From the NCBI GenBank assembly GCA_019115945.1, contig DXCO01000037.1, forward strand, positions 62,001 to 126,000: a stretch of DNA of 64,000 nucleotides, read 5' to 3'. This document shows positions 41,427 to 43,093 of the stretch, one piece after another. This DNA comes from Candidatus Borkfalkia excrementavium. GTDB taxonomy: Bacteria; Bacillota; Clostridia; Christensenellales; Borkfalkiaceae. The notes below the pieces were generated by a model. It saw only the letters and a program-made list of their open reading frames with translations. It made no database searches and was not told where the DNA came from. Position 1 is the first letter of the stretch; every line of letters starts with the position of its first letter. The position numbers and the translations under genes are program-made.

Positions 41427-41502
41427 GGGGATGTAGCTCACCCGGTAGAGCGATACGTTCGCAACGTATAGGTAGTCAGTTCGAGTCTGATCATCTCCAC
41501 CA
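41427..41502 (+). tRNA. tRNA-Ala(CGC), CCA encoded
   Basis: A full cloverleaf can be drawn: 7-bp acceptor stem GGGGATG/CATCTCC with the alanine identity pair G3-U70, D arm GCTC/GAGC, anticodon stem ATACG/CGTAT with loop TTCGCAA (anticodon CGC, reading GCG), T arm GTCAG/CTGAT with loop TTCGAGT, then A73 and genomic CCA. The 3' end is one copy of a 17-bp direct repeat bounding a small island. Confidence 0.92.
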
Positions 41503-41511
41503 TAAAAAAGC
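41495..41511 (+). repeat. Left 17-bp direct repeat (att-like, in tRNA-Ala 3' end)
   Basis: CTCCACCATAAAAAAGC spans the last 8 bases of the tRNA gene and the start of its terminator. An identical copy lies 989 bases downstream at 42484-42500 without a tRNA body. Confidence 0.75.
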
Positions 41512-41544
41512 ACGGTGCAAAAGTACCGTGCTTTTTTATGGTGG
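41497..41544. terminator. 20-bp inverted-repeat terminator at the tRNA 3' end
   Basis: 41497-41516 and 41525-41544 are perfect 20-base inverted repeats with an 8-base loop. The stem includes the tRNA CCACCA end. T6 and A6 tracts make it bidirectional, serving the tRNA and the minus-strand gene ending at 41586. Confidence 0.8.
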
Positions 41545-41585
41545 GCATAATGGGAAAATCAATTAAGTTCACCACGATGCTATTA

Positions 41586-41840
41586 TCAGTAATCGCAATT
41601 ATAAAATATTCGCTCAAGTTCTTCCAAATCTTTTACCACTATGTCAAGGTGTTCAACCGTCACAGTTTTTTCTCTTTGCGGTCTGTATTTATATGAACCG
41701 CATTTATCGTTTTCGTATACCGCTTTTTGTTGTTGCGTACAAAATCCCGCTTTATGTTTATGAAAAGAATATGCGCTTTTTATATAAAACACGTTGTAAT
41801 AACGGCACCCTTTACAGGTATGTAAATTTTGTGTGTTCAT
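41586..41840 (-). CDS. CX2CX21CX12C mini-protein B
   Basis: 84 residues starting MNTQNLHTCKGC, preceded by AGGAGGAAAG. Four cysteines at 9, 12, 34 and 47 form CX2CX21CX12C, which probably binds one zinc. A C-terminal acidic helix (EHLDIVVKDLEELERIF) follows. The start codon shares one base with the stop of its upstream paralogue (TAATG), so the two are translationally coupled. Motif spacing is identical in both. I recognise no family. Function unknown; location in a small island with an XRE regulator hints at a regulated accessory role. Confidence 0.65.
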   Translation of the reverse strand: MNTQNLHTCKGCRYYNVFYIKSAYSFHKHKAGFCTQQQKAVYENDKCGSYKYRPQREKTVTVEHLDIVVKDLEELERIFYNCDY

Positions 41841-42127
41841 TATAAATTTTTTCTTTCCTCCTGTTCTTCCTGAATGATTTGGCGGATTGCAGATATATCC
41901 ATCAGCATTTCGTATAAAGCTCTTGAAATTACTCTTTTCCGAAAATAAAATCGATGGCGGTTTGTTTCCCAACAATCACAAGTATCTCCATTGTTTACTA
42001 CCTTGTTATGTTGTTCGCAAAAGCCTTGCTTTGTGCGTTCAAAACAATGCAATCCTTTTGTGTAATAGCCTTCATAATGTCCGCAGTATACACATTTTGT
42101 ACTTTTCTTTGCTTTCTCGTTTTCCAT
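41840..42127 (-). CDS. CX2CX21CX12C mini-protein A
   Basis: 95 residues: MENEKAKKSTKCVYCGHYEG onward. Cysteines at 12, 15, 37 and 50 have the same CX2CX21CX12C spacing as protein B, plus extra Cys28 and Cys52. Shared residues include YYTKG/FYIKS, F-x-x-x-K-x-GFC and Q-x-x-K-x-V. A C-terminal helix (ALYEMLMDISAIRQIIQEEQEE) may mediate dimerisation between the two. CCGGAGG lies before the ATG. It is transcribed from a consensus promoter whose spacer holds inverted operator motifs. Confidence 0.65.
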   Translation of the reverse strand: MENEKAKKSTKCVYCGHYEGYYTKGLHCFERTKQGFCEQHNKVVNNGDTCDCWETNRHRFYFRKRVISRALYEMLMDISAIRQIIQEEQEERKNL

Positions 42128-42159
42128 TTGAATTTACCTCCGGTTCATCCTATAAAATT

Positions 42160-42188
42160 ATTATATAGCTCTTTTCGAGCTAAGTCAA
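42160..42188 (-). promoter_or_regulatory. Promoter of the mini-protein operon
   Basis: On the minus strand: TTGACT (42183-42188), 17 bases, TATAAT (42160-42165). The spacer contains TAGCTC and GAGCTA half-sites. Confidence 0.8.
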
Positions 42189-42203
42189 GCAATTTAGCTC
42201 GAA
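42166..42203. promoter_or_regulatory. Inverted-repeat operator array for the XRE regulator
   Basis: TTCGAGCTAA (42174-42183) and TTAGCTCGAA (42194-42203) are perfect inverted repeats 10 bases apart. A further TAGCTC lies at 42166-42171, so three half-sites cover the minus promoter and the upstream region of the regulator gene. Confidence 0.7.
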
Positions 42204-42221
42204 TTGTGCTAAAATATACCT

Positions 42222-42446
42222 ATGATTTTATTTAAGAGCCGATTAAAACAATTAAGAACAGAAAAAAATCTTTCGCAAACAGAACTTGCAAAAGTTTTAA
42301 ACGTCAGTCAAAGAAGTATCAGCAGTTGGGAGACGGGATTCAGACAACCCGATTTTGAAACTTTGGAACGAATCGCTAAATTTTTTGAAGTGACGACAGA
42401 TTATCTTCTTGGCTTAGAGGACGAAACAGGTACAAAATTGCAATAG
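42222..42446 (+). CDS. XRE-family helix-turn-helix regulator
   Basis: 74 residues, almost entirely one Cro/CI-type HTH domain: KQLRTEKNLSQTELAKVLNV, SQRSISSWETGFRQPDFETL and ERIAKFFEVTTDYLLG. No ribosome site is visible. An extended -10 (TGC-TAAAAT, ending at 42215) would start transcription at or next to the A of the ATG, so the mRNA may be leaderless. It is divergent from the two mini-proteins and presumably represses both promoters through the GAGCTA motifs between them. Confidence 0.85.
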   Translation: MILFKSRLKQLRTEKNLSQTELAKVLNVSQRSISSWETGFRQPDFETLERIAKFFEVTTDYLLGLEDETGTKLQ

Positions 42447-42483
42447 TTAAAAATAACTTATTGTTCAACTTATATTACAGGCA

Positions 42484-42500
42484 CTCCACCATAAAAAAGC
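42484..42500 (+). repeat. Right 17-bp direct repeat (att-like)
   Basis: CTCCACCATAAAAAAGC, identical to 41495-41511 but with no tRNA upstream. It is followed directly by a GC-rich terminator that may be the original tRNA-Ala terminator. Confidence 0.75.
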
Positions 42501-42519
42501 CGCCCTTCGGGGCGGTTTT
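42494..42519 (+). terminator. Terminator at the right edge of the island
   Basis: CCGCCC-TTCG-GGGCGG stem (42500-42515) is flanked by A6 and T4. Confidence 0.8.
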
Positions 42520-42742
42520 ATGATCGGTCGGGATTTTGTATATAAAATAAAAGTTTTGTCTGAAAATTCAGGGAGGGGCGAAATATTCCGAGACCGGTTT
42601 TTTACGGCCGATGTATAAAACGGTCGCCGCCGGTCAAAAAATAATAACGGAAAGCATCCCCGAACAAGGCCGCTTGCGCAATACATATAATGAATAGAAG
42701 GGGAGGCGTTTCCGAAAGAAAAATTTTTTGGAGATCAACAAA

Positions 42743-43093
42743 ATGGACATCAAAAGGGGAGAACTTTACTATGCTGACCTGAGCCCCGTTGTCGGCAGCG
42801 AACAGGGCGGGGTGCGCCCCGTACTGGTGGTGCAGAACGACATCGGCAACAAATACTCCCCGACGATCATAGCCGCCGCGGTGACGAGCAAGATCAATAA
42901 AGCGAAACTTCCCACCCACATCGAACTGCCTTCCGCAAGTTACGGGCTTGCAAAGGATTCGGTGATCTTGCTTGAGCAGATTCGTACGCTCGACAAGCGT
43001 CGGCTGAAAGAGCGCATCGGCGAACTTCCCGAAAACACGATGCGTCGGGTAGACGGGGCGCTTCTCATCAGTCTCGGCTGTAAAGTAAACTGA
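42743..43093 (+). CDS. MazF/NdoA-type endoribonuclease toxin
   Basis: 116 residues: [56 protein letters not shown], and [15 protein letters not shown]. This is the close Bacillota NdoA (EndoA) branch, which cuts single-stranded RNA at UACAU-like sites. The start follows TTTGGAG. The cognate antitoxin (NdoAI/MazE) normally sits immediately upstream, but the roughly 220 bases before this gene contain no such frame. The antitoxin must be elsewhere or absent. Confidence 0.9.

Follow-up and report, generated by a model that had tools for sequence, protein, structure and literature searches.

How does a one-kilobase island of AT-rich DNA come to lie behind a tRNA gene, between two copies of the end of that gene, when no recombinase is found among its own genes? 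The locus raising this question belongs to what we call the window, i.e., the whole 64,000-nucleotide stretch of DNA analysed here, where a repeat search finds two exact + strand copies of the 17-bp sequence CTCCACCATAAAAAAGC, at 41495-41511 and 42484-42500, 989 bp apart. The left copy takes in the CCA end of tRNA-Ala(CGC) (41427-41502, + strand), the sole tRNA that ARAGORN predicts in the window, together with a terminator start; the island is thus located directly 3' of a tRNA CCA end, and a second copy of that end closes it. When up to three mismatches are tolerated, the only third match in the window is an inverted arm with two mismatches, at 41530-41546 in the left hairpin; the chance expectation is 0.14 matches, and three were never reached in 100 shuffles. 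One has to keep in mind that only CTCCACCA is the tRNA part of the repeat; its remaining 9 bp, TAAAAAAGC, belong in each copy to the beginning of a different terminator hairpin. GC content is about 34% in the island (33-35%) versus about 53% outside (50-57%). The original prediction had described the repeat and its spacing, the AT-rich content and three small genes in a two-way layout with no recombinase among them, and all of this holds.

Two of these genes overlap on the minus strand, namely gene B (41586-41840), coding for an 84-aa Cys-rich protein, and gene A (41840-42127), coding for a 95-aa protein with a CxxC...GxC...CxxW pattern and a predicted C-terminal helix; sequence comparison makes their products paralogous small Cys-rich proteins of pattern CxxC..GxC..C. 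On the plus strand, a 74-aa XRE/HTH_3 repressor (42222-42446; HTH_3 E 2e-19) is separated from A by a divergent promoter/operator region delineated by alignment (42128-42221; AGCTC..GAGCTAAGTCAA..TTTAGCTC). A and B are under purifying selection, with dN/dS of 0.09-0.20 for A and 0.18-0.27 for B (about 0.09-0.27 for the pair), and XRE compared with its homologue in the congeneric genome G034 gives a dN of 0.125 with dS saturated; all three island genes behave as real genes. No function was obtained for A or B from NCBIfam, PHROGs, PADLOC or Pfam, Ribosomal_S14 and other matches being sub-threshold and dismissed, and AlphaFold gave a weak model for A (pLDDT 66), to which no fold could be matched. 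The PHROGs search of the island returned a clear match for XRE only, plasmid and phage collections contained no DNA or protein match to the island, and IMG/VR no relative of the A family. XRE and its operator have counterparts elsewhere in the genus: the window XRE shares 79% identity with the XRE that, in G034 (locus L076), stands divergently to the gene for a large serine recombinase (LSR), and the window operator is homologous to the one preceding that serine-recombinase operon. Next to the island, and not part of it, is a PemK/MazF-like gene (42743-43093), kept in 37 of 40 congeners.

The cargo is found elsewhere. The A family is patchy, with members in 37 of 396 genomes and 22 of 142 genera across the order, often in several copies, and an XRE gene divergent from A(-B) is a recurrent layout across about 60 A-family loci. 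Modules of this family are found behind tRNA-Tyr in G002, close to the 3' end of tRNA-Tyr in G033 and, in another genus, behind tRNA-Ala(CGC) (G085). In a distant genome, an A-B block behind tRNA-Ala(GGC) (L230) is 83% identical in nucleotides over 554 bp, with unrelated flanks; since A is 84% identical but a Mur-ligase-like protein of the same contig and its window-genome counterpart share just 39%, the block has moved horizontally. A further case comes from another family (L209, genome G312), where a 708-bp unit made of A and XRE lies behind tRNA-Ser(GCT) with both arms intact and ends, directly after XRE, with an exact 10-bp copy of the end of that very tRNA-Ser; its two ends are arms inverted with respect to each other: AACCTAAATCGAA follows the tRNA and TTCGTTTTAGGTT precedes the tRNA copy. 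Of 61 A-family loci, five are located at most 600 bp 3' of a predicted tRNA where about one would be expected (1.7% of random positions, same loci), and most have no adjoining predicted tRNA. A search for the three-gene cassette at other tRNA genes, as had been proposed, brought out the A-family module behind Ala-CGC, Ala-GGC, Ser-GCT and Tyr, and these comparisons support a module that is horizontally mobile and settles 3' of different tRNAs.

The arms themselves are spread over the order. The left-arm pattern CCA-N5-AACCTAAAWCGAAC occurs at about 112 sites in 75 of the 396 genomes, against none for the reversed-pattern control. Of 30 such sites that were retrieved, 19 adjoin the CCA end of a predicted tRNA (Glu, Ala, Ser, Tyr, Val) without a gap, and the rest are preceded by tRNA-end scars, a cassette junction (L282) or apparent tmRNA 3' ends. 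Such tmRNA-like ends, recognised by eye and not predicted, precede the left arm in L384, L337 and L338, so that tmRNA genes seem to be targets too. The right arm lies exactly 28 nt before a CCA end at 25 sites without mismatch and at 35 with at most one (reversed control, 0); at two mismatches, there are 42 sites versus 20 in the reversed control (28,137 CCAs; about 7e-4 per CCA), and a right arm of that quality is consequently moderate evidence only. Eight IMG/VR contigs (L371-L378) carry the exact left-arm motif, which puts some of the elements, or tRNA sites belonging to their hosts, among contigs classed as viral. One unit of 1.06 kb (L335, 5043-6106) has long perfect terminal inverted repeats around the palindromic core TGGTGCACCA and no tRNA, possibly reflecting orientation-free insertion.

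Both ends could be assigned for 24 units, three of which encode an LSR and 21 (363 bp to 5.2 kb) do not. Units of 363, 660 and 708 bp are among them; the window island, thought at first to be among the smallest tRNA-targeted cassettes, is thus small without being the smallest. The 21 recombinase-less units carry, among others, a GmrSD-type and a NERD nuclease, an RNase_T exonuclease, GIY-YIG-like proteins, an N6/N4 methylase, acetyltransferases, a TrkH transporter and unknown proteins. The three recombinase-bearing units (5.4-6.9 kb) also encode a REP_ORF2-G2P replication protein and cargo (HNH, AIPR, methylase); this common protein, 300 aa long (L303 2647-3546, L301 6807-7706, L302 6217-7116), suggests a stage of rolling-circle replication. 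In five loci with the motif, an LSR gene lies 0.3-1.2 kb 3' of the tRNA and points towards it, and the recombinase of L303 has Resolvase, Recombinase and zinc-ribbon domains.

The 24 units also suggest where the ends join. Identity between attL and attR begins abruptly at positions -6/-5 from the tRNA 3' A, with a dinucleotide (CC, TC, CT or GC) that is the same on both sides in 23 of the 24 units (shuffled mean 11, maximum 18 in 5000 shuffles), and most bases upstream of it match at chance level only. A two-base crossover is a hallmark of serine integrases, and we read the shared dinucleotide, on sequence grounds, as a serine-recombinase signature. An integron-like reading, prompted by left-end hairpins with an internal loop, was set aside, because tRNA sequence is present in the ends and a dinucleotide marks the boundary.

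In the genus of the window genome, the arm has a version of its own, CCA-N5-GAACTATCCGAAC, which 17 of 40 congeners carry (control, 0). Its sites lie behind the tRNAs Ala(GGC), Ala(CGC) and Glu and behind an apparent tmRNA end, and the window genome has one such arm, behind tRNA-Glu (L379). In G034, this arm lies inside the 3' end of the serine-recombinase gene, whose last 28 codons recur behind several tRNAs with 82-89% identity. The attP thus seems to lie within the recombinase gene (L387; L076, 7524-7745, where the attachment site is apparently inside the 3' end of the LSR gene), and integration would then split off the last 28 codons. A sister species (G007) shows, at the syntenic locus (NrdG-dUTPase-rubredoxin-tRNA-Ala), an ORF for an LSR C-terminus abutting tRNA-Ala(CGC); its Pfam zinc-ribbon match is just below the cutoff, and a longer homologue at tRNA-Ala(GGC) of the same genome passes it. 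Copies of tRNA end plus terminator are frequent behind tRNA-Ala in the genus. Palindromic units without coding sequence, about 120-190 bp long, were also observed behind tRNA-Ala(CGC) (L081, L084, L086, L092, L093); they consist in order of a terminator hairpin, an inverted tRNA 3' half, a GC-rich hairpin and a forward tRNA end; up to three stand in tandem, often between the tRNA and a left end of the recombinase type.

How does the window copy compare? Its right end reads TTCAACTTATATT-ACAGGCACTC|CACCA, a candidate right-end arm (TTCAACTTATATT-ACAGGCA-CTCCACCA, 42464-42491, + strand) with the exact 28-nt spacing and two mismatches to the consensus TTCGNTTTANRTT, for which the chance level is about 7e-4. 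The right repeat is not the remnant of a deleted second tRNA gene, since the bases preceding CTCCACCA form an attR-like arm and not a T-arm. The predicted crossover dinucleotide, positioned by reference to the 24 related units, is CC at both 41497-41498 and 42486-42487, an identity at -6/-5 that is weak by itself because CC is the commonest dinucleotide. The terminator hairpin after the right repeat (42492-42524, + strand) resembles the tRNA-Ala flank in G017, and we propose that it is the displaced original 3' flank of the tRNA. The left arm CCA-N5-..GAAC was not found at the window tRNA, where TAAAAAAGCACGGTG stands instead, and the search for this missing arm returned only a short AATTAAGTT match. 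Its expected place is occupied by a perfect, terminator-like 20-bp inverted repeat (CCACCATAAAAAAGCACGGT/ACCGTGCTTTTTTATGGTGG, 41497-41544, + strand) that begins in the tRNA CCA, and the tRNA is followed by a terminator hairpin like those after tRNA-Ala in some relatives; one may speculate that a later event at the tRNA 3' end, e.g., the insertion of a palindromic non-coding unit, replaced the left arm. An empty tRNA-Ala site with a single repeat, which would have supported insertion, was not found in 40 congeneric genomes because none of the congeners examined has the mazF-lgt right flank next to the tRNA; G017 was considered and rejected as an empty site, its downstream genes being different. 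No LSR was detected in the island or in the 1.55-Mb MAG to which it belongs (89.8% complete). The original prediction had read the locus as a footprint of site-specific integration: it was right about the kind of event, and what it had before it is probably a fossil, a decayed and now immobile copy deprived of its left arm.

The shared ends, the dinucleotide, the horizontal transfer, the several tRNA targets and the recombinase-bearing relatives are computational observations, and the reading that we build on them, and consider reasonably probable, is that the island is a non-autonomous cassette of an LSR family targeting tRNA 3' ends, now probably immobile. It would most likely be a worn-out member of a large gut-bacterial family of tiny cassettes found behind almost any tRNA. 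The recombinase would be encoded by the larger elements (5.4-6.9 kb, LSR plus rolling-circle Rep) and would take the near-universal tRNA T-arm GGTTCGA as one half-site (in the window, the GTTCGA of tRNA-Ala(CGC) is the proposed host half-site), with strand exchange at a dinucleotide lying five to six positions ahead of the tRNA 3' A. The element's own arm would then supply the last bases (..CCA) and a terminator, so that the tRNA would survive integration; as only the dinucleotide must match, the same ends could target many tRNA and tmRNA genes. One- or few-gene cassettes with the two arms could be inserted by this LSR in trans, the window cargo being an XRE-controlled pair of Cys-rich proteins that probably shares its regulation with the helper, given the homology of XRE and operator to those divergent from the congener's LSR operon. 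The idea of a recombinase-less cassette moved by another element's enzyme thus gains a large class of units sharing arms with LSR-encoding elements, and its trans component is inferred from them. Against our reading stand the missing left arm, the two mismatches of the right arm, the lack of a detected LSR in the MAG, the failure to find a clean empty site and the many A-family loci with no predicted tRNA beside them; the exact repeat, moreover, runs 9 bp past the CCA, which the model neither needs nor explains.

The most serious competitor, which we nevertheless hold to be unlikely, is that of a CIME-like deletion remnant: a full LSR element at tRNA-Ala would have lost its recombinase and replication genes in place, and the cassette would never have moved by itself. 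The lack of a detected LSR in the window genome and the missing left arm would fit, as would the homology of XRE and operator to the LSR-adjacent ones, by which A and B could fill the place of a lost operon, and L322 still has a truncated LSR. However, the compact A-B(-XRE) unit is found behind other tRNAs and in other genera without LSR remnants, and 21 of the 24 complete units have no LSR and yet keep both arms. As these 21 carry diverse cargo between intact arms, we favour trans-mobilisation over deletion for such cassettes.

A tyrosine integrase acting in trans on a 17-bp identity core at the 3' end of tRNA-Ala, as in a classic tRNA island, was our first idea, drawn from inverted GAAC motifs; it was dropped on account of the LSR genes and the dinucleotide signature, and we now regard it as very improbable. 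The long exact repeat does take in the tRNA end, and tyrosine recombinases are common in the genus, the only one that a PF00589 search finds in the window genome being beside tRNA-Arg(CCT) (the same search did not recover from the window MAG the Xer-like recombinase that most members of the genus have; the core Xer-type recombinase was also weighed as a possible driver). However, a pattern screen, which can miss divergent members, detects no tyrosine integrase to a distance of about 7 kb around the roughly 60 A-family loci, related units agree only from the dinucleotide onward, and the recombinase of the family is an LSR. Chance, i.e., older events leaving near tRNAs two terminators whose A-rich starts happen to be alike, with unrelated genes accumulating between them, is hardly credible: half of the 17 bp is terminator start and tRNA-end copies are frequent behind tRNA-Ala in the genus, but the AT-rich content lies exactly between the repeats, an attR-like arm stands at exact spacing and the same module has tRNA-end boundaries elsewhere.

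A wider proposal, which we put forward tentatively and with rather less confidence than our reading of the island, is that one LSR clade reads the universal T-arm and CCA end and thereby sustains an order-wide, integron-like traffic of cassettes of about 1 kb among tRNA and tmRNA genes, with nucleases, methylases, acetyltransferases and unknown genes as cargo, most of them mobilised in trans and some carrying a repressor matched to the operator of the helper's recombinase. If this were true, a recombinase for which a T-arm, a CCA end and a dinucleotide suffice would find targets in all genomes, behind many tRNAs, and the spread of single small genes without a recombinase of their own, several of them nuclease-, restriction- or methylase-like, would be explained. 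It would also provide a compact setting in which to study how satellites depend on helpers, together with natural serine recombinases whose landing site is universal, and it would make testable the long-standing doubt as to whether islands without an integrase are cassettes mobilised in trans or dead remnants.

Several known systems come close to these cassettes, a family that apparently is undescribed, a provisional statement for the part of the literature covered. Tycheposons are tyrosine-recombinase elements at tRNAs, some of them without recombinase; they are likewise tRNA-linked small cargo elements, and the recombinase class differs. PICIs and other phage satellites share tRNA targeting and helper dependence, but carry their own integrase and phage-related genes (PMC10111431); the window island has neither an integrase nor phage-interference or packaging genes. 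The SCC and pseudo-SCC elements of staphylococci also combine a serine recombinase, recombinase-less cassettes and composite arrays (PMC6450365, PMC3637587), and the LSR of L076 resembles CcrB, below the NCBIfam cutoff. However, Ccr inserts SCC at rlmH, whereas the window island lies at tRNA-Ala and the present cassettes use many tRNA targets, are far smaller and have autonomous members with a G2P-family Rep. CIMEs and tandem accretion at tRNA 3' ends similarly leave attL and attR without integration genes, and tandem arrays (PMC5704250); unlike CIMEs, the units described here measure about 1 kb, carry one or a few genes of diverse kinds between intact arms and occur behind many tRNAs, and their attL and attR share a dinucleotide and not a long core, the window island having kept an attR-like arm without an attL arm. 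As for serine recombinases, the main text of a large survey leaves tRNA unmentioned (PMC10083194), and in a review of IMEs it is the tyrosine-type elements that are reported at tRNA 3' ends, the site-specific serine-type ones disrupting genes (PMC5704250). The Tn4451 (TndX) serine IMEs resemble the cassettes in having a large serine recombinase and a very short end identity and in being small elements of Firmicutes (PMC5704250). An autonomous IME of this kind encodes its LSR, which the window island, like most cassette units here, does not; and where site-specific serine IMEs are reported to disrupt dispensable genes (PMC5704250), the cassettes target and restore the 3' ends of tRNA and tmRNA genes.
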